From a virus: a DNA stretch of 33,015 bases. The notes below the pieces were generated by a model that had not been told where the DNA came from, searched no databases, and saw only the letters and a program-made list of their open reading frames with translations. How positions within the stretch are numbered: the stretch's first letter is position 1; each line of letters opens with the position of its first letter. The stretch lies in the IMG/VR virus record IMGVR_UViG_3300036978_000557, positions 1-33,015 of that record; one strand, written 5' to 3'. Positions 22,158 to 32,808 of the stretch are shown one piece after another. The position numbers and the translations under genes were made by a program.

Positions 22158-22453
22158 TTGGCCGCTTGCAGGATTAGCACCAGTCGTGCCTCGGTGGACA
22201 ACAACGGCTTGCCCTCCCCGGTCCACGCTGGCGAGGTGGCAACGGCGCGGAGGTGTGCCGTCACGTTCTGCCGCTCTTCCCGCGCGCCGTCTTCCCAAGC
22301 GTTGTTGAGGATCACAGTCGCCGCCGCGCGCAGCTGCTCCACCTCAGCCACCAGCGCGATGTTGTCGGCGATTACCTGCCCTGCATAGTCGGTGCCACCA
22401 GCGTGGCGCATCAGCGCCTCCAGCCGGGAGCGGATGCCGTCAAGGTTGCTCAT
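22118..22453 (-). CDS. Ea22-like small protein, tandem copy 2
   Basis: This 111-residue protein starts at ATG 22453 behind GGGAGG; four in-frame codons upstream are not needed. It opens with LDGIRSRLEALMRHAGG, has a helical middle (ALVAEVEQLRAAATVILNNA) and ends in the same ERGDHCREGAE as the downstream gene. The overall plan matches copy 1, while the middles have diverged. It follows the DNA polymerase gene with a four-base overlap. Role unknown. Confidence 0.55.
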   Translation of the reverse strand: MSNLDGIRSRLEALMRHAGGTDYAGQVIADNIALVAEVEQLRAAATVILNNAWEDGAREERQNVTAHLRAVATSPAWTGEGKPLLSTEARLVLILQAANIERGDHCREGAE

Positions 22454-24534
22454 ACTGCCTCCCATACCTGCAAGCGTCCACTAACATCGCGGCGTTCGTC
22501 GGCGCTCTTCGACCACACCCGGAACATCGACGGCTCCACCTTGACGGGTACGTTGGGCATGTACTGCTGCATACCGGCGACCATCACGGCGCACATCCGC
22601 TCACAGGCCTCGGCAGCGCGTGCCTCGGGTGCCTCAAACACAAACTCATCGTGGATCTCGATCACCGGGCGGCATCCAAACAGCGCGCTCGTTTCATGCG
22701 GGTGGCGGATACGTCGCTCCCAAAACACACCAAACCCGGTGTAGCACTCGGAACTCGCGGCAAACAACGCCGACTTCATGCCGTCGGCGGTCAAGCCTTG
22801 GAAGTAGCTATTGCACCCCTGCGAGTAGTTGCACCCGCCGCGCAGGCGACCACTGCGAGGCTGGACCAACGTAAACTCACCGCCTCCCCGCTCCACTTTA
22901 GCCGACACATCCGCAAAAAACTTTCGCATTTCCGGCCAGCGGTTTAGCCAAGCCGCCTTGAATCGCCCGGCCCTGTCGAGAGCCTCGGTGTCGTCGTCGC
23001 CGAAGATCACAGTGAAGTCGGCTTTGCTGATTTGCTTCCTGACCGTCGCTATAAACTTTTCCGGCCCCATCCCGCCCGGAAAGCCAAAGTTGATTTGCTT
23101 GGCCGCTTGCCGCATCACCGCGACCTGCGGGTCTTTTTGCTTACGCCGCACGGCGGCTTCTTGGTAGGTGATGCCCAGCAGCTCGGCAGCGAGCGCGAGG
23201 TGGAGGTCGCGCCCCGCCTTGAGTGCTTCTGCCATCTCGGAATACCATCCCTGGTCAAGGCAGTGCTGCGCGAGGGCGACCAACTCGATACCGCTGTAGT
23301 CCGCCTGAATGAAGACCGTACCCGGTCGCGCTTCGATGCACTCCCGATAGCCACCGGCTTTGGGCAGGTTCTGGAGGTTTAGCGGCTTGCCGCAACTGGT
23401 GCGCCCCGACTCCACCAGCACGTTGAAGCGGGCGGTGATCGGGTGGTCGCTGCCGCTGCGGAGCGGCTCGATGTAGGTGGCGAGGTTGTGTTCGTCGGCA
23501 GAGATCGACGCCAACGCTAACAGGATCGGGACGTCCTGCTCCGACCGTTCGCCGGTGAGCTCATCTGACATCCACACCCGCACGGTGGGCTGTCTCCGCG
23601 TGGGTGCCGCGAGCAGCACTTCTTTAGCGGTCGAAGTCTTGCCCCCGGCAGTTTGGGGTGCCTCCAGCCCCTCGGATGCGTAGGCGTCGGCGACCTCGCG
23701 CGCCAACCTGGTGGTGTCCTTCGACCCGTCCTTAAAGCGGAACAGGCTACCGGTGAGCGCATCGCGCACGCTGCGGCTGTTGGCCTCCAGCAGCTGCGCG
23801 AGCGCATCCACCTTGGCGCGGTTGGTCCGCACTCCCCACGCGCTCATCAGCTTGAGCGCGAAGTCGGCGGCGGCTTGGCTTTGCTCATCGGTGACCATTC
23901 CGGTCACCGCATCGACGACGCCGCTGTGCGTGTCGCTCGCTTGCGCGCACCACATCTGGTACGTCTGCACAACGTCGCGGATGGGGTAATCGCGCGCCTC
24001 GGCGGGCCACTGGTCGAGCGGCACGCCGTCGAGCTCGGCGTACCGCAACCGCCACGCATCGGGCGATGCCTTGTCGTCGGATATGTCCACCCCGAATCGG
24101 GTGAGCATGATCGCCGACATCGAAAACGACCCCTGCTTTTTGCTGCCGAAGTCGCTGCTAAAGTTCCCCAGGGCGAGCTGGATCAACTGCTCGCGGATTT
24201 GCGTGCAGCTGATCCTGCCGTGCGCGTAGGCCTCAAAAATCCACGGCACCAGCGTAGGGTCGGCAGCGCCACAGACGGCGAGATCGTAGGCGACGTTGTG
24301 ACCGACAATCCGGGTGGACGTGTCGAGCAGCGCGAGGCGCAGATCGTGGAGCCCCGCCGCCTTGTCCAGCAGCTTGCCGCCATTGACCAAGGGCAGTGGG
24401 CCGTTGCTGCCGATGCGGTGGGGGTAGGCGGACAGGGCGCTCACGCATACCAGCGGCGGTATCGGTAGGCCCGGCTGGACAAGGTGGGTTTCAGTGTCGA
24501 AGACGTAGAGTTTGACAGGAGTGGTGGTGGTCAT
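22450..24534 (-). CDS. Family A DNA polymerase with 3'-5' exonuclease
   Basis: This 694-residue enzyme copies phage DNA. The exonuclease domain has FDTET (D13, E15), GHNVAYDL (D84) and RDYPIRDV. The polymerase domain has motif A ADYSGIEL (D412), motif B RQAAKQINFGFPGGMG (R475, K479, F483) and motif C EIHDEF (D629). F483 matches E. coli Phe762. The position of Tyr766 is Gly487, in an FPGG turn that I recall from some phage polymerases. No 5'-3' exonuclease domain is present. The ATG has no clear ribosome binding site and lies just after a strong hairpin (24544-24570). Confidence 0.9.
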   Translation of the reverse strand: MTTTTPVKLYVFDTETHLVQPGLPIPPLVCVSALSAYPHRIGSNGPLPLVNGGKLLDKAAGLHDLRLALLDTSTRIVGHNVAYDLAVCGAADPTLVPWIFEAYAHGRISCTQIREQLIQLALGNFSSDFGSKKQGSFSMSAIMLTRFGVDISDDKASPDAWRLRYAELDGVPLDQWPAEARDYPIRDVVQTYQMWCAQASDTHSGVVDAVTGMVTDEQSQAAADFALKLMSAWGVRTNRAKVDALAQLLEANSRSVRDALTGSLFRFKDGSKDTTRLAREVADAYASEGLEAPQTAGGKTSTAKEVLLAAPTRRQPTVRVWMSDELTGERSEQDVPILLALASISADEHNLATYIEPLRSGSDHPITARFNVLVESGRTSCGKPLNLQNLPKAGGYRECIEARPGTVFIQADYSGIELVALAQHCLDQGWYSEMAEALKAGRDLHLALAAELLGITYQEAAVRRKQKDPQVAVMRQAAKQINFGFPGGMGPEKFIATVRKQISKADFTVIFGDDDTEALDRAGRFKAAWLNRWPEMRKFFADVSAKVERGGGEFTLVQPRSGRLRGGCNYSQGCNSYFQGLTADGMKSALFAASSECYTGFGVFWERRIRHPHETSALFGCRPVIEIHDEFVFEAPEARAAEACERMCAVMVAGMQQYMPNVPVKVEPSMFRVWSKSADERRDVSGRLQVWEAV

Positions 24535-24585: not shown

Positions 24586-25062
24586 TTAGAACGGCGTACC
24601 AAAGATCGGCTCAAAGTCATGGACGGTGAAGTCCCCGCCGACCTTGGTTTTAACAGCCTTAGTGCGGCACTTGACGCGCGTGCCTGCTGCCATCGTACCC
24701 GGTGCCGACGACTTCGTGGCAGGCTCGAGCAGGTCGAGCACCTCGGCCTCGCCGACCTCGCTGGGATTGACGTGCTCGCCTTTCAAGCTGCCGCACAACG
24801 CGGTGACAAGCTTCTTAACGTTGCCAAGAAAGCTCATTTTAGAGGCACCGGAGTTCCCCACAAAGTAGGAAACCTCGGTGCCGGGCTTGTGCTCAGAGTC
24901 GGACTCGATGACCGTGAATGTCGCTACAAAGTATTCGTCGCCGGTGGTCTTCTTCTCGCCAGTGATCGCACTGACAAGCTCCAAAACGTAGTTTGCGTTC
25001 GGTGCCATGTACACGCCGGACTGTGAATAGCTTGCGTCTTTCATCTTTGAAAACAGGCCCAT
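24586..25062 (-). CDS. Putative single-stranded DNA-binding protein
   Basis: This 158-residue protein has an OB-fold-like run of strands: SGVYMAPNANYVLELVSAIT, EYFVATFTVIESDS, EVSYFVGNS, then a helix (FLGNVKKLVTALCG) and TRVKCRTKAVKTKVGGDF. Many phages have such a protein next to the polymerase gene. No OB signature residue can be named, so the call is by pattern and context. The start has AAGGAGG, which sits inside an AGGAGGCTCCT dyad that could hide it. Confidence 0.45.
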   Translation of the reverse strand: MGLFSKMKDASYSQSGVYMAPNANYVLELVSAITGEKKTTGDEYFVATFTVIESDSEHKPGTEVSYFVGNSGASKMSFLGNVKKLVTALCGSLKGEHVNPSEVGEAEVLDLLEPATKSSAPGTMAAGTRVKCRTKAVKTKVGGDFTVHDFEPIFGTPF

Positions 25063-25100: not shown

Positions 25101-25490
25101 TTATCGGTTGCCCGACGAAGTAACTCTATCGCGTGCCGCACGCTTGGCAAGGGTTTTTTTATCGGGAGTGCAAATCCGCAGGTTTTCGCGCCGAAGGTCT
25201 CGGGCGTCCCCGTTGATCGTGCTCGTTCTGTCGCTGGGTGTCGCGCCTGCCAGTAGCCGCGCGAGGTAGATCGTGTCCCTGTCGTCGCCACCGTGACTCA
25301 CTGGCCTGCCGGCCTTTCCGGCGCTCCAGTGATGCGACTCGACGATGGCGAGGTCGGCGACGTCAAACAGGATCACTACGCTGGGCGCGATACCGGCCTG
25401 CGACGTTGGTATGGTGAGCAGCAGCAGCTCAGGGTGACCGATAGAGATCGTAATCTCGTTGATTTTGCGGGGCCTGCCTATTGGCATCAT
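25101..25490 (-). CDS. HNH-type protein with lost catalytic residues
   Basis: This 129-residue protein has the plan of phage HNH homing endonucleases: a central strand-helix part (DTIYLARLL) and a conserved tail, INGDARDLRRENLRICT (92-108). In active relatives the residue before INGD is His, followed later by D-N-R-R-E-N-L. Here those positions are T91 and L99, and the usual LHR is LAR. The enzyme is therefore probably inactive as a nuclease but may still bind DNA. Start 25490 overlaps the helicase stop as ATGA; 25487 is the alternative. Confidence 0.55.
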   Translation of the reverse strand: MMPIGRPRKINEITISIGHPELLLLTIPTSQAGIAPSVVILFDVADLAIVESHHWSAGKAGRPVSHGGDDRDTIYLARLLAGATPSDRTSTINGDARDLRRENLRICTPDKKTLAKRAARDRVTSSGNR

Positions 25491-27208
25491 ATGCTCCAGG
25501 TGTTGGGTAGCCACGTCCCAAGCTCCACCTTGCGGCGAGTGCTCATAGACTGCTGGACGTAGGTTTCGTCGGTGAGGCTGTCGCGCAGCGAGGTGCGCGC
25601 CTGCGGGGTGTGGCTGAGGTAGTGGACGTCAACGGCGTCGGCCAGCTGCCCGGGGCGGTGTGCGCGCCCGATAAGCTGCTCGACGGTGGACCCGCTGCGC
25701 GGCCAGTTCAGCACCAGCATCACGGGTGTCCGTTGCAGGTTCTTGCCGGTGCCGTGCGCGATGATGCTGCACGCCACCGCGTCGTCGGTGCTTGTTTGCG
25801 GGTCGCTGCCTGACCCGTACAACGGCAAGCCCAGCTGCTCGAGCGCGAGGCCCAACGCGGTGTGCTCGTACCACACCGACACCGGCACACTGGGCCGCGT
25901 TGACAGCTGCTCGAGCACCCACGCGCCGGCGGCACGGACCAAAAAATCCGACAACCACACCGGCTTCGTCGGCGGTTGCGGACGGTCGCGCACAGCTTTC
26001 CACCCCTCATAGGCGGCGAGGGCTTTGGGGTCCTCGAGGGTGCCGTTGGAGAGCGCGAGGGCAACGCGCAACGGCGAGTCCCACCGGTGGTCGTTGGTCT
26101 TGAGGATCCGTCGCACCGCCTTGTTCCACGACGCACGCCGCTCCATCCACTCGACGTCAACGACGCCGCCCGGCCAATCCCAAACGTAGTAGAACCCGCT
26201 GCTGAGTTGCTGCTCAACTCTGAACACGGCGAACGCATCGACCAGCTCCTCCCCATCCGGGCGGCACCACGTCCGCTGGAGCTCCAACCGCGCCGCCTTG
26301 ACGACCTCGGGTTCGGTGAGCGGCAACTCATGGAAATAGAGACCGACACCCAGGTCACTCTCATCGGAGGCAACGACGCCGGGGGTAGCCCGGAACCTGT
26401 CGGCGAACGCCTCGCGCGCCACCCGCGCGTCGGTGGTCGGAGCGGTCGGCAGCAGGCACCGCGAGATCGCACGCCAATCGCTGGGCAGCGCAATGCCATC
26501 GGCGTCGAGCACGTTGGCCCACGACAGCAGCTCGGCAAGCTGAAGCGGAATGGGCGCACCGTCACCCAGCGCGAGCTCGATGAGGTGCGCGTAGTCTTTG
26601 AGACCTCGTTTGGTCAGCGTGCCCGATATGAACGCATACTTAGTCTGGGGAAACTGACGGGCGTACCGCATGAAACGTTTGGTGCGCGTCGAAGTCAAGT
26701 GCCGCAGGTTGTGGGCCTCATCGCAGATGATCAAGTCAGGCCGGTACCGCATAAGGAAGTCCGCGCCGCTGTTCACCGACAGCGCGGAGTACGTCATAAT
26801 CTTTAGATTGGTAGCGACCTTAAAGTGCTGTCGGAACTTCCGGTATTCCATGTGGAACGTGTCGAGCAGGTTGGCGGGCAGCAGCAGCAGGGGCCGCTCG
26901 GCACCCACGGCAACGGGTGCCAGCATCGTAAACAACCCCTTGCCTCCACCAACCCCCACGGGGCCGCAGAGACCGCCGGTCTGCTCGAGGTTCCACAACA
27001 TCGCGTTCTGAACGGGGCGCAAGCTCATCGTACCGCCGGCGGCGCGGTACCGCTCCGTCTGGTCGGGGACGTCGTCGGCGGACCAGCGAGGCAGGGCAGC
27101 GATGCGCCCCGCCTCGGTCTGCTCGGTGGGAGGCGCGGCAGGCAACGACGCCCGGTAGGCATCGCGACGCGCGACCGCTGCCCGGATGTCGATGCCGCCG
27201 CTGCCCAT
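25487..27208 (-). CDS. SNF2-like superfamily 2 helicase/ATPase
   Basis: This 573-residue protein is a DNA-dependent ATPase likely acting in replication or recombination. It has GPVGVGGGKGLFTML at the Walker A position (loop residues 84-91; the usual Thr/Ser after Lys is Gly), DEAH (163-166), a motif III-like FISGTLTKRG (193-202) and a late QLIGRAHRPGQ (511-521), the motif VI of SNF2-like enzymes. The start at 27208 is four bases after the previous stop; the open frame upstream is a shadow. Family members often sit beside phage polymerases and RecB-like nucleases, as here. Confidence 0.75.
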   Translation of the reverse strand: MGSGGIDIRAAVARRDAYRASLPAAPPTEQTEAGRIAALPRWSADDVPDQTERYRAAGGTMSLRPVQNAMLWNLEQTGGLCGPVGVGGGKGLFTMLAPVAVGAERPLLLLPANLLDTFHMEYRKFRQHFKVATNLKIMTYSALSVNSGADFLMRYRPDLIICDEAHNLRHLTSTRTKRFMRYARQFPQTKYAFISGTLTKRGLKDYAHLIELALGDGAPIPLQLAELLSWANVLDADGIALPSDWRAISRCLLPTAPTTDARVAREAFADRFRATPGVVASDESDLGVGLYFHELPLTEPEVVKAARLELQRTWCRPDGEELVDAFAVFRVEQQLSSGFYYVWDWPGGVVDVEWMERRASWNKAVRRILKTNDHRWDSPLRVALALSNGTLEDPKALAAYEGWKAVRDRPQPPTKPVWLSDFLVRAAGAWVLEQLSTRPSVPVSVWYEHTALGLALEQLGLPLYGSGSDPQTSTDDAVACSIIAHGTGKNLQRTPVMLVLNWPRSGSTVEQLIGRAHRPGQLADAVDVHYLSHTPQARTSLRDSLTDETYVQQSMSTRRKVELGTWLPNTWSI

Positions 27209-27212
27209 CGCT

Positions 27213-28376
27213 CTACGCCCGCACGACGACGGATGCCATCGGCAGCAGCACCGCGAGCACCGCGTTGGTATAGGGGGCGCTCGGGTCAACGCAGATGACG
27301 CCGGTGGGCGCGTTCAACAGCAACGACGCCGCGAGCAGCTTCTGCCCTTCGTTGTACGGCAGCAAGTCCCAATAGCTGACCCGCTTAAGGGTTTCGACAT
27401 CACGCATCGCGGGCTCGAGCACGTCGTGCAACTCGCGGTACTCCATGCCTTTGCTGGGGCGGCACCCGATGAGCAGGGTGAGGGTAGGAGGCGCGACCAC
27501 GACGGGTGCGGCAAGCTCCACAACCTGCACGACGGGTTCGGCAACCTCCACGACGGGGGCCGCGACGACGACGGGCGCGGCGACCTCGACGACCTCAACA
27601 GGACGGTCGCCGGGACCGGGCTCAAACAGCACCTGCTCGAGCTCCACAAACGTCGCCTTGACCTCGGCCTGCGTGGGCGGCTTGCGGCGGGTAAGGTCGA
27701 AGCCGTCGCCGTCGATGTCCCACTCCGACGCGAGCAGACTCTCAGTCAGGATGCGCCCGAAGATCTCATCCGATACCACCAGCAGCTGCTGGTAGTCCCA
27801 CCCCAACCGCAGGGCTTCGTTCAACGACTTCTCGCTGTTCAGATCCCAGTCCACAAACTCGGTGGGTGCGGCGGGCTGGTCACGATCCGTGACCTCGGCC
27901 TGCTCTTCGATCACCGGCGGGGGCTTCAACCCGGCGTCGAGGATCTCGTGCTTGCGCTCGCAGCTCATGCGGGAGATCTCAACCTCCGACCACCCCAGCG
28001 CCACAAGGCGCGGGGTACCGTTGCGGGGCTGGCGTTTGGAGGTGGCGACCTCGACGACGGCGACAACCGGCGCGAGCTCGACGGCGGCGACGACGGGCAC
28101 CACAACCGGGGCGACCTCGGCAATAGGCGCGAACACTACGGGCGTGGGCACGGCGGCGATCACGGGGCGCACGGCACCCGGCTTGAGCGCGGCGGCAATG
28201 CCCGCCAAACTGGGGGAGGCCGGGGCGTCGGCGGGTGTAATCTGACCGGGCTTGGCCAGCTGCGCGGCAATAGACGCCGCGAGGCCAGGGCGAACAGCGA
28301 CGGGGGCGGCGGTAGGAGTGGTGGGCGATGCGAGGGCGGCGGCACGTTTGGCGGCGAGATCAGACAGTAGGGACAT
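27213..28376 (-). CDS. Internal-start product, 387 residues, unknown
   Basis: An ATG at 28376 begins codon 264 of the nuclease frame and is preceded by AAGGATCCACCACC, a good ribosome binding site. It follows the last nuclease cysteine by only 13 residues, exactly where a stand-alone nuclease would end. The product starts MSLLSDLAAKRAAAL, has Ala/Pro/Val-rich repeats, a charged middle (DWDLNSEKSLNEALRLGWDY) and an end with LTLLIGCRPSKGM and GVICVDPSAPYTNAVLAVLL. I do not recognise the family. Either a two-part fusion or a nested second protein, or both, is made. Confidence 0.5.
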   Translation of the reverse strand: MSLLSDLAAKRAAALASPTTPTAAPVAVRPGLAASIAAQLAKPGQITPADAPASPSLAGIAAALKPGAVRPVIAAVPTPVVFAPIAEVAPVVVPVVAAVELAPVVAVVEVATSKRQPRNGTPRLVALGWSEVEISRMSCERKHEILDAGLKPPPVIEEQAEVTDRDQPAAPTEFVDWDLNSEKSLNEALRLGWDYQQLLVVSDEIFGRILTESLLASEWDIDGDGFDLTRRKPPTQAEVKATFVELEQVLFEPGPGDRPVEVVEVAAPVVVAAPVVEVAEPVVQVVELAAPVVVAPPTLTLLIGCRPSKGMEYRELHDVLEPAMRDVETLKRVSYWDLLPYNEGQKLLAASLLLNAPTGVICVDPSAPYTNAVLAVLLPMASVVVRA

Positions 28377-29165
28377 GGTGGTGGATCCTTGATTTAGTGT
28401 TTTGATTGACTTGCAGGTGTCTATAAACGCGCAACCGCCAAAGGCGGTACACGCGCTCCAAGTGGGAGTAACTCTATCGGGGGCTGGCATCAACGCGACT
28501 TGCGCCATTTCGCGCACCGTCGCCTGAATCCCTTGCCACTGGTGCTCGATGTGCTCGAGGTCGAGGTAGACCGGCCCGACGACAACGCCCTCAGCGGCTT
28601 TAGGGGGTTTAATCAGCGCGATGTGCGCCACGCCGACGGCCTCGGGCTCGCACCCGTAGACTGTCTGGTGCCGCAGCACGGTGGCGGCGGCGTACAGCGT
28701 CATCTGCACATCGGTGCGGAGCTGGTCGGGCTCTTTGATCCACTTGCGGTCCTTCGTGGTTTTTTGGTCCCATACGACCGGCCACCCTGCTTTGAGGTCG
28801 AGCAGGTCCATGTAGCCCTCGGCGGGCAGTCCATCGACCTCGAGCAGCGCCACGCCCGATGCGTTGACCGCGCGCCGGTCCACCCCGATGGGGTGCTCGA
28901 CAAGCACCGTGCTGCCGGGGCGAGTGCGCGGCCCAGGGATCTTACCCGACGCTGCGAGGGCAACGAGCGGACGGGTGACGCTGCTCAGTCCGTCAGTCTC
29001 GCCGGTCAGGAAGAACTGCTCGGCCTCTTCGGCGTACCGCTTGCCGTCGAGCAGCGCCTGCGTGACGGGTTGCTCCATCCCGACTATTTTGGACAGGAAC
29101 CACTTTCGTTGGCACAAACGGAACGTCGTTACCTGCGTGGCGCTCCAGTGCTGAAACGGCTTCAC
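27213..29165 (-). CDS. Cas4/RecB-like nuclease fused in frame to an unknown C-terminal protein
   Basis: This 650-residue frame starts at GTG 29165 with GTGA overlap onto the lipoprotein stop. Residues 1-263 form a PD-(D/E)XK exonuclease: WSATQVTTFRLCQRKW (C18), E90, GYMDLLD (D120), VVWDQKTT (D133, K135), QMTLY and a final CTAFGGCAFIDTC. C18, C239, C245 and C251 are the four cysteines of a Cas4/AddB-type iron-sulfur cluster. From residue 264 a second part follows with no stop. It has Ala/Val/Pro repeats around residues 300-380 and 540-580 and a conserved-looking C-terminal domain. It acts probably in DNA end processing or replication. Confidence 0.65.
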   Translation of the reverse strand: MKPFQHWSATQVTTFRLCQRKWFLSKIVGMEQPVTQALLDGKRYAEEAEQFFLTGETDGLSSVTRPLVALAASGKIPGPRTRPGSTVLVEHPIGVDRRAVNASGVALLEVDGLPAEGYMDLLDLKAGWPVVWDQKTTKDRKWIKEPDQLRTDVQMTLYAAATVLRHQTVYGCEPEAVGVAHIALIKPPKAAEGVVVGPVYLDLEHIEHQWQGIQATVREMAQVALMPAPDRVTPTWSACTAFGGCAFIDTCKSIKTLNQGSTTMSLLSDLAAKRAAALASPTTPTAAPVAVRPGLAASIAAQLAKPGQITPADAPASPSLAGIAAALKPGAVRPVIAAVPTPVVFAPIAEVAPVVVPVVAAVELAPVVAVVEVATSKRQPRNGTPRLVALGWSEVEISRMSCERKHEILDAGLKPPPVIEEQAEVTDRDQPAAPTEFVDWDLNSEKSLNEALRLGWDYQQLLVVSDEIFGRILTESLLASEWDIDGDGFDLTRRKPPTQAEVKATFVELEQVLFEPGPGDRPVEVVEVAAPVVVAAPVVEVAEPVVQVVELAAPVVVAPPTLTLLIGCRPSKGMEYRELHDVLEPAMRDVETLKRVSYWDLLPYNEGQKLLAASLLLNAPTGVICVDPSAPYTNAVLAVLLPMASVVVRA

Positions 29166-30065: not shown

Positions 30066-32567
30066 TCAATAGGGCACGCCATCGGCGTCGGGCACATAGG
30101 CGGGGAGCACGTCCACCACGGGTTCGGATGGGGGTGGCGCATATTTTGGCGGGTCGGTGATCCGCGCGCCTCGCGGGGGGACGGCGTGTTTTTTCTGCGC
30201 GGCGGACGGGTGCCACACCCAGCAGCGCCTCGCGCCCGTTGTCCGCTTGACCCACCCAAAGCGGATCATGGCGAGGCCGATGTTGGTACCGTTGGGCCTC
30301 GCGGCCCCGAAGCAAAGCGCCGCCACTTTTTCGAGCAAGTCCGATGCGCTCCACTCGGTGTTGCTGTGCTTGACGATCACCTGGTACACCGCGTCTTCGA
30401 CGCTGTCGTCGGCGAGGTACTGCTGGTTGCGGACTCCGATCTCCGTCTGCTCCGCAGCTGTCGGCCACCAGTGGACGCCCGCTGTGATCTTAGCGTCCGC
30501 CTCTGCCCACAGCTGCGGAGCAACCGCCTTGACCCGTGCGAGGTCGATGCGTCCGCTGCGTACCTCGAGCGTCCAAAACCGGCGGTTTTCGCTGCTGCGG
30601 TCCACAAGGTAGAGTTTGACGTTGGTGTTGCCAAAAAACACGCATTGCCTTGGGATATCTTCAAGCTCGGTGCCGTGCATCCTCACGCCGGTGTCGCGGC
30701 GGCGGTCGATAAAAGTCATATATTCGACGTGGTTTTTCCACGTCGGCATTTCTGCCATTTCGTGGATCAAGTAGTTCGGGAGCACCATAATGCTACGCTT
30801 TTCGTCTTGCGGAACCGGTGCCGGGTTGAACCACGACTCATCCGGGCACAACGCGCGCAACAGCTCCGTCTTGCCCTCGCCGCCATCGGCGGCGTAAAGC
30901 ACCAGCATCGAGTCCGCTTTGCTGCCCGGCTTGCGAGCTCGCACCACGGCGCTCATCATCCACCACATGAGGCAGCGCGCGTTGTAGGCGTCCTCGGTGA
31001 CGTCCGGTGCGGCTCCAAACAGAGCGCGGGCTTCGTCGCTGAAACGCTCGGTGCCGTCCCACGACAGCGAGTCGAAGTAGTCGGTGATCGGGTTGCGCTG
31101 GTCCTCGGCAGCGCGGGCATAGATGGCCTCGCGGGTGTCGCCGGCTGTCGGGTGGACGTCCTGGGCGTCTAGCTGCACGCGGATCTCCCTCGACAGCGCG
31201 TCGGTGAGCGGTGACGACTTGCCCTCCGACTCCACCATCACCCGCCGCTTGAAACTATCGGTCCAGAACATCGCATCGAACGGCGGCATCGACAGCGCCC
31301 GCACAACGTTCCCGAATGTGGACTCGGGTCGGTTGTTGGAGTTCGTTCGCAGGCCACCTTGCTGGGCCTGCTGAGCACGTTGGGCCTGCTGGGCCTGCTT
31401 GGCGGCGGCGTCCGCTGCGCGAGCTGCTGCGCGGGTGTGCTGAGTCATTGCCGCGACTGCGGAGCGGCGGGCGTTGGTCGCGTTGAGTCCCACGCCGATG
31501 GTGCTTGCGTGGCGCATAGCGAGCGCGGTTAGGACGCCGACGTCGAGCACTCCCGATGCAAGGAGCGCGGCGAGGTAGGCGCGACCATCGGAGCCCCGCG
31601 ACAGCGCGTCGAGGTTGGGGTCGTTGTTGTGCGCGGCGATGGTCTCGACGTCGCCGGCCTCGACGTCGCTGTGTGGAGCGTCGGCGGCAAGCGTCGGCGT
31701 CCTCTTGCGGAAAGCTCCGGCGATGCTCGCGCCGACGTCCTCGGAGGCACCGGCCTGCAAGCCACGGCTAAACGCGCTGCTGTGGTCCTTAGAGCCCTCG
31801 CTGGACCACTGCGACTGGACGTGCGCGAACACTGCCAGGGCGACCGCAGGGGCCAGAGAGCGCGCCCCAACCCGCAGGCCTGCCCGATACCCTTGCGCGT
31901 TGGCAACGTCGTTGCGTTTGCCGCGTGGGGTGCCCAGCAGCAGGGCGGCGACCTCGTCGAGCGCGTCGAGCGACTCCGGCGAGGTCTCGACGTCGGCGTA
32001 GTCGTCAAGCTCCACCGGGTGCGCGGCGTGTTGGTGGGTGGCGTTGTAGCGGGGGAGCAGCGCGTGGTACGCCATCGGCAGCTCGGCGAGCTGCGCGCGA
32101 GGTGGCGGCACGCAGTCAAAGTGGATGCAGCTGTACCCGGAGTTGCTGCGAACATCGAACCCGGCGATGCCCAACACCGCCGAATCGAACCCCAGCGCCA
32201 TGTCCTCAGTATCTGGGTACTGAAACCACAGGTGAAACCCACCGCCGCTGGTCTCATCGCGGTAGGTCTCTGGTAGGGTCCATCCGACGCGCGCGAACAC
32301 CTCGGCAGCAACGAGGCCCTGCTCGGGCTTGGTGTCGAAATCCAGCATCACCACCCCATCGCAAACCGCGATGGAGGGGATGGCGTTCGGCCAGCTGGTC
32401 CACCAGTTGCGGATCACAGTCGGATCCTGCGTGGCGTTTTTCCACCCGTTCGGGGTGCGCGGTTTTTTATTGTCGCCACACGGGAAGACCCAGTAGCCGT
32501 TGCTCGCGGCCTCGAGGGCGACGTCGAGGCGTGGACGGTTGCGGGTCTGCGGGGTAAGAGTATTCAT
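30066..32567 (-). CDS. Primase-polymerase/VirE-like helicase
   Basis: This 833-residue protein probably starts replication. The N-terminal prim-pol domain has DFD (D76, D78), SGGGFHLWF (H112) and DVRSNSGY (D138). A middle linker contains Gln/Ala repeats (391-403). The C-terminal ATPase domain resembles virulence-associated E/D5-type helicases, with a Walker A DGGEGKT (561-567), NYLIHEMAEM (E603), FFGNTN (645-650) and NRRFW (R662, R663). The ATG at 32567 is chosen over an upstream ATG because it follows AAGG and begins just before the conserved domain. It is the second gene of the leftward unit, after the RHH protein. Confidence 0.8.
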   Translation of the reverse strand: MNTLTPQTRNRPRLDVALEAASNGYWVFPCGDNKKPRTPNGWKNATQDPTVIRNWWTSWPNAIPSIAVCDGVVMLDFDTKPEQGLVAAEVFARVGWTLPETYRDETSGGGFHLWFQYPDTEDMALGFDSAVLGIAGFDVRSNSGYSCIHFDCVPPPRAQLAELPMAYHALLPRYNATHQHAAHPVELDDYADVETSPESLDALDEVAALLLGTPRGKRNDVANAQGYRAGLRVGARSLAPAVALAVFAHVQSQWSSEGSKDHSSAFSRGLQAGASEDVGASIAGAFRKRTPTLAADAPHSDVEAGDVETIAAHNNDPNLDALSRGSDGRAYLAALLASGVLDVGVLTALAMRHASTIGVGLNATNARRSAVAAMTQHTRAAARAADAAAKQAQQAQRAQQAQQGGLRTNSNNRPESTFGNVVRALSMPPFDAMFWTDSFKRRVMVESEGKSSPLTDALSREIRVQLDAQDVHPTAGDTREAIYARAAEDQRNPITDYFDSLSWDGTERFSDEARALFGAAPDVTEDAYNARCLMWWMMSAVVRARKPGSKADSMLVLYAADGGEGKTELLRALCPDESWFNPAPVPQDEKRSIMVLPNYLIHEMAEMPTWKNHVEYMTFIDRRRDTGVRMHGTELEDIPRQCVFFGNTNVKLYLVDRSSENRRFWTLEVRSGRIDLARVKAVAPQLWAEADAKITAGVHWWPTAAEQTEIGVRNQQYLADDSVEDAVYQVIVKHSNTEWSASDLLEKVAALCFGAARPNGTNIGLAMIRFGWVKRTTGARRCWVWHPSAAQKKHAVPPRGARITDPPKYAPPPSEPVVDVLPAYVPDADGVPY

Positions 32568-32596
32568 CACTGCCTTGGTTGTGCGAGGTGGTTGAA

Positions 32597-32648
32597 GTGG
32601 CCGGTGGCAGCGTGGTGGCTGTCCCGGCCACGCCCCTTTTTTGGGGCT
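32597..32648 (-). repeat. Two hairpins between RHH and primase genes
   Basis: GTGGCCGG (32597-32604) pairs with CCGGCCAC (32624-32631), extended by GGCAGC/GCTGTC after one bulged T. Next to it GCCCC/GGGGC (32633-32637, 32643-32647) enclose a six-base T-loop on the + strand. No U-run follows in leftward transcription, so these are not clear terminators. They may stabilise mRNA or regulate the primase gene. Confidence 0.55.
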
Positions 32649-32808
32649 AAGAACGTGGTAGAACGAGCACGCCACGCAAGACAAGCTCGAGCACGCGAGA
32701 GAAGTTCTGACCGCTTGAGGTTGTGAGCGCCTGAAGCTGCGCGCGGATCACAGGGTCAAACGTGACAGCGACAACAGGGCGGGTGCGTTTTGCAGTGGTG
32801 GTAGGCAT
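32647..32808 (-). CDS. Ribbon-helix-helix DNA-binding protein
   Basis: This 53-residue protein starts at ATG 32808 and has the Arc/CopG plan: a strand (RPVVAVTF), a helix (DPVIRAQLQALTTS), a turn (SGQN), a second helix (FSRVLELVLRGVLV). Such proteins bind short DNA repeats as dimers. It is the first gene in the leftward unit, right beside the CCCGTA iterons, so it is a natural candidate to bind them. It has no Shine-Dalgarno; a promoter-like element just upstream would give a leaderless mRNA. No metal-binding domain is present. Confidence 0.65.
   Translation of the reverse strand: MPTTTAKRTRPVVAVTFDPVIRAQLQALTTSSGQNFSRVLELVLRGVLVLPRS

Follow-up and report, generated by a model that had tools for sequence, protein, structure and literature searches.

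The window considered in the present analysis is a contig of 33,015 nucleotides (33 kb) from an uncultivated phage, which carries a replication gene cluster on its minus strand in the order Prim-Pol/VapE protein, nuclease-tail frame, SNF2-type helicase, small ORF, 158-aa protein and family A DNA polymerase (PolA). The Prim-Pol and VapE-like helicase domains reside in a single protein (30066-32684, -) upstream of the nuclease. The nuclease-tail frame (27213-29165, -) starts with a GTG at 29165, preceded by the Shine-Dalgarno (SD) sequence GAGGTGG, and extends to a TAG at 27213 with zero internal stops, as the first-pass annotation had claimed, thus encoding a fusion of 650 aa. The ATG of the SNF2-type helicase (25487-27208, -), a neighbour that is kept in the relatives, lies 4 nt past the stop of the tail; its Pfam match (8.9e-5) is below the Pfam cut-off and its match to phrog_62 has an E-value of 8.3e-16. 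PolA (22450-24534, -) was assigned by PF00476 (1.4e-25).

The 158-aa protein (24586-25062, -) has no family match in Pfam or PHROGs, while homologues occur at the same position, adjoining PolA, in about 20 loci. Its gene has a very strong SD (AAGGAGG, -12.2 kcal/mol), and its position is the sole ground for a guess that it binds ssDNA. The 137-aa ORF (25101-25514, -) between the helicase and the 158-aa gene is HNH-like by eye, with no Pfam match. An antisense ORF of 394 aa (27186-28370, +) with high GC content, lying over the tail, was considered spurious.

The nuclease domain

The N-terminal part of the frame (28390-29165, -; residues about 1-258) is a PD-(D/E)XK nuclease of the Cas4/RecB type, an identity proposed earlier and backed here by a match to Pfam PDDEXK_1 (PF12705, 4.5e-15). 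A PDB sequence search with the nuclease gave no match; its AF2 model, with pLDDT mostly >90, retrieved AdnA (3.7e-6) and Cas4 (1.9e-5) in Foldseek, along with EXO5, AddB and RecE. The motifs D120, D133-x-K135 and Q154xxxY158 are conserved among 47-48 aligned members. The domain has one N-terminal cysteine, C18 (29112-29114, -), and three C-terminal ones, C239, C245 and C251 (28413-28451, -), which together presumably hold an Fe-S cluster; C239 and C245 are invariant and C18 and C251 are at least 90% conserved in the same alignment.

Two more specific assignments were rejected. CRISPR Cas4 proper is excluded by the TIGR00372 score of 14.5 bits (cut-off 65) and by the SNF2, PolA and Prim-Pol/VapE neighbours, and an Rpn-type (COG5464) nuclease domain by a Pfam search at E up to 0.1, which returned only PDDEXK_1 (PF12705). 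The domain, the four cysteines and the catalytic motifs are shared with the Cas4/RecB-type phage exonucleases (phrog_69 and phrog_1218) and with the Cas4, AddB and EXO5 structures. In contrast to the present frame, the distant relatives L007, L008, L096, L097 and L099 are stand-alone nucleases that end soon after the cysteines and lack the tail.

Distribution of the fused frame

Relatives were sampled with a polymerase query, from which 79 loci were taken (roughly 130 further relatives were also found), and with a helicase query, which added 2 more; the usable set comprised 52 loci in 43 clusters at 50% identity. A nuclease profile detects the gene in most sampled loci, and those without it appear truncated by a contig or flank edge ahead of the gene, several beginning within the tail. 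SNF2 lies downstream in nearly all loci, followed by PolA. In 52/52 loci, one frame holds both the nuclease and its tail, the latter roughly 135-415 residues long; a stop before the internal ATG, sought in relatives as had been proposed, was found in 0/52. Sequencing error or a lost stop in the window is therefore ruled out, since the relatives share the open frame. Since the two parts are uninterrupted by a stop in every lineage seen, the fusion is probably useful in its own right.

From the last cysteine to the first ATG, the linker ranges in length from 9 to 34 residues; it is free of in-frame stops, with stops present in the +1 frame of 28/41 linkers and in the +2 frame of 14/41. In part of the family, it is fixed at 12 residues and its coding is conserved (CNLSPxERLxSxM). 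When bacterial genomes were searched with the nuclease profile alone and no PolA query, three loci (L093-L095) were obtained, all with the open fused frame and an in-frame ATG; the SD is good in L093 and L095 and weak in L094. Searches for cultured phages using tblastn with the nuclease, the tail and two family members gave a sole credible tail-bearing match, the uncultured complete genome MW202816.1. This encodes a 596-aa protein, about 24% identical and annotated as a single CDS, whose BLASTP alignment runs through the cysteines up to MSLL; it has the same C-terminal domain and an internal SD and ATG of its own (AAGGAAGGA...ATG), 30 codons past the last cysteine.

The internal start site

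An in-frame ATG (28374-28376, -) is situated 13 codons past the last cysteine of the cluster (28413-28415), and translation from it would yield a stand-alone C-terminal product of 387 aa (27213-28376, -), predicted from the conservation of this start; both position and length agree with the first-pass annotation. That annotation had also called the ribosome binding site strong. The SD AAGGA is indeed present (28386-28390, -), in line with the anti-SD meta-profile of the family, but is only of medium strength in the window (-5.2 kcal/mol, compared with -7.4 for the nuclease GTG, -3.6 for PolA and -3.3 for SNF2), its force lying in its conservation. GC3 drops from 0.81 to 0.5 across the nuclease/tail junction. 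In L002, whose nuclease is 87% identical, the frame is the same and about 30 nt covering the SD and the ATG are identical. The arrangement is thus more than chance, because L002 keeps the frame, the SD and the ATG and 52 loci repeat it. A sigma-70-like site was looked for as an internal promoter and none was found. A 27-nt block with a GATAGAGTTACTCCCACTTGGA core and rare codons (28457-28483, -), about 80-105 nt upstream of the internal start, is also identical in the window and L002; it might be a regulatory element, or a product of chance.

The start-site signatures were examined on one codon per cluster, defined as the first in-frame ATG 9-40 codons past the last cysteine. Such an ATG is present in 41/43 clusters and absent in L023 and L054. 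The mean SD duplex energy of these 41 ATGs is -5.15, while 287 further in-frame ATGs from these genes have a mean of -2.51 (p=3.5e-9); 73% of the former against 20% of the latter reach -5 or below. The second residue is S/T/A/G/N/P in 37/41 vs 115/287 (p=4e-10), with Ser in 19/41 vs 17/287. Anti-SD pairing peaks at -12 to -9 nt with -3.9 kcal/mol for the internal ATGs and -3.1 for the first ATGs of PolA/SNF2, the profile of 345 control ATGs being flat at -1.2 kcal/mol. Local RNA structure at the internal ATG is weaker than the gene mean in 41/41. As the clusters are related, the p-values serve as guides and not as exact probabilities. A chance ATG at 28376 is ruled out by the control ATGs of the family.

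Two relatives have another codon at the start position. In L023, GTG replaces ATG (GTG TCC CTC CTG), and in L004 the equivalent place holds a TTG (TTG TCA CTA CTT), each with an SD-like stretch before it; L004 is counted among the 41 by a later ATG, which is without an SD. The internal start seems to be lost in L054, and weak SDs occur in L022, L094 and the L061 group. Shuffling of synonymous codons, where the ATG was picked by the best SD, gave a Fisher p=0.018; as the SD is already spelled out by the residues of the linker, this is too weak as sole proof. What speaks for the internal start is hence the combination of the signatures and not by any single test.

The weakness of the synonymous test, the frame unbroken in all loci and the 12-residue linker with conserved coding in part of the family would all suit a single fusion product, with the Met-Ser...LL segment serving as a helix motif and the AT-rich linker remaining as a relic of gene fusion. 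Against it stand the SD peak at the correct spacing, the start-like second residue, the relaxed RNA structure, the replacement of ATG by TTG or GTG and the persistence of these signals over linkers varied in length and sequence, and we consider a single product quite unlikely. Two starts in one frame are, on the contrary, highly likely. At the level of sequence, the arrangement is an in-frame gene-within-gene, with a conserved SD and start codon and a shared stop. The earlier suggestion that one frame makes both a fusion and a stand-alone C-terminal protein is strongly supported by the comparison, with 52 open frames and start-site signatures across the clusters. A gene with a nested start is common to at least 40 uncultivated phages that are distantly related to one another. 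It very probably yields the whole enzyme and a separate tail, and the latter is probably useful, since its start signals are kept.

The tail region

The tail of 387 aa is composed to 42% of Ala/Val/Pro/Gln. It begins with the helix MSLLSDLAAKRAAALA (28329-28376, -; residues 264-279 in the AF2 model, moderate confidence), whose LLxxL..K-like pattern recurs across the family, followed by a Pro/Ala-rich stretch that is modelled with low confidence where included. The motif ITPADAP (28221-28241, -) is the version in the window of a recurrent [IVL]xPP[DE]A; this or [IV]NPP is present in 31/43 clusters, with 40 matches in 13,737 tail residues vs 2 in 106,702 PolA/SNF2 residues, counts that are descriptive only because the patterns were written after viewing the sequences. 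The motif looks like a docking motif.

The C-terminal end of the tail (27216-27488, -; LTLLIGC...VVVRA) is modelled as an alpha/beta domain (AF2 pLDDT 91) with the order beta-alpha-alpha-beta-alpha-beta. The 387-aa tail as a whole has zero matches in Pfam, PHROGs and NCBIfam, in keeping with the unknown domain noted in it earlier. Fold searches gave weak Rossmann/P-loop-like matches (Foldseek E at least 0.18; Z 5.6 with VIA, the best, and 4.5 with Sak4, both weak), and no Walker motif was seen in the alignment of the domain. The profile of the alpha/beta domain matches most fused ORFs; in some members another short region takes its place at the end. AT-hook-like patches (KRGRPRK/GPGRPRK) occur in 15/43 clusters, e.g. 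L058, L064, L077 and L073, often in members whose final region differs from the alpha/beta domain.

These patches and the long disordered tail would be expected if the free tail were the main product with a job of its own, such as DNA binding, the nuclease being an N-terminal add-on and the two forming no common complex; PMC9430671 likewise mentions two-polypeptide endolysins in which heteromers are not formed. However, a separate tail gene is present in no lineage examined, the apparent cases in the sampled loci sitting at a cut locus edge; this suggests that the covalent link is important. A role of the tail independent of the nuclease is accordingly regarded as very improbable.

Proposed mechanism and comparison with known systems

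The favoured explanation as a whole, to which we give slightly more than even weight, is a gene-within-gene whose fusion and free tail assemble into one complex. Ribosomes initiating at GTG 29165 would produce the 650-aa nuclease joined to the long tail, and those initiating at ATG 28376 the 387-aa tail alone. The free tail would then assemble with the tail of the fusion, the most likely association because the tail is common to both products. The short motif, the AT-hook-like patches of many relatives and the folded end may dock this complex on the phage replication/recombination machinery, with the SNF2 helicase and PolA encoded next door as putative partners. The nuclease would thereby become a minor, targeted and dosage-limited subunit of a tail-docked complex, a proposal that we hold to be evenly poised.

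Nested in-frame phage genes with a common C-terminus are known from lambda C/Nu3 and T7 4A/4B, which, unlike the nuclease-tail pair, encode a protease and a scaffold and a primase and a helicase, respectively.

In those two-polypeptide endolysins that have been studied, each full-length chain associates with three or five C-terminal chains, giving 1:3 or 1:5 complexes (PMC7098653, PMC9430671). LysIME-EF1, CTP1L and LysP7951 (PMC7098653, PMC4777826, PMC9430671) resemble the present gene in being phage genes with a catalytic N-terminal part and an internally started C-terminal part. They differ as cell-wall hydrolases, whereas the gene described here encodes a DNA nuclease in a replication cluster, with unrelated domains and a complex that is only predicted. 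In the Type I-D Cas10d/Cas11d system, as far as it is cited in PMC10327210, an internally started C-terminal subunit joins the complex of the full-length protein; that is a CRISPR effector and not a phage nuclease-tail protein. By analogy with the endolysins and with Rpn, the fixed ratio and shared complex suggested earlier are plausible for the present pair.

The main rival to an adaptor or loading complex is suggested by the Rpn system. There, the C-terminal product of an internal start, RpnS, attaches to RpnL, a PD-(D/E)XK nuclease, and blocks it (PMC10327210), and the order of the parts is the same as here. By the same principle, the free tail could be a built-in inhibitor, bound to the fusion and holding the nuclease inactive up to the moment of its use; phage DNA would thus be protected, and release of the tail would start the cutting. 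The present comparison fits inhibition and assembly equally. Rpn, for which inhibition is proven, is, on the other hand, a different nuclease family encoded by a mobile bacterial defence gene, and RpnS is a small three-helix dimer, while the present gene belongs to a conserved replication cluster; we thus regard a built-in inhibitor as unlikely. The conserved replication genes around the frame and the motif carried by the tail speak more for an adaptor or loading complex.

Significance of the probable nested gene

In-frame nested genes as a kind are already known from phage lysis enzymes and bacterial Rpn nucleases. In the open-access literature, most subscription journals being outside its scope, no description of this nuclease family, of the tail domain or of their replication-cluster setting was found, nor a prior report of a two-in-one gene in a phage DNA-replication cluster. 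It is conceivable, though we lean somewhat against it, that in a large clade of uncultivated phages the replication-linked nuclease of the Cas4 type always works as a pair of products, an obligate system whose internally started adaptor sets the loading number of the nuclease. We put forward with similar reserve that this adaptor, consisting of the helix, the [IV]xPP[DE]A motif and the alpha/beta domain, is previously undescribed and governs the loading of the nuclease on a replication/recombination complex.

If true, in-frame nested genes, as known for lysis enzymes and defence toxins, would also operate in the DNA-processing core of phages. Annotation by the rule of one ORF, one protein may overlook a product in a whole phage clade, as illustrated by MW202816.1, the sole relative with an annotation, for which a single 596-aa protein is listed. 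The tail also offers two candidate adaptor elements, a defined but uncharacterised domain and the short motif that recurs across the family, and the nested arrangement would offer a simple route to how phages limit their own nucleases.
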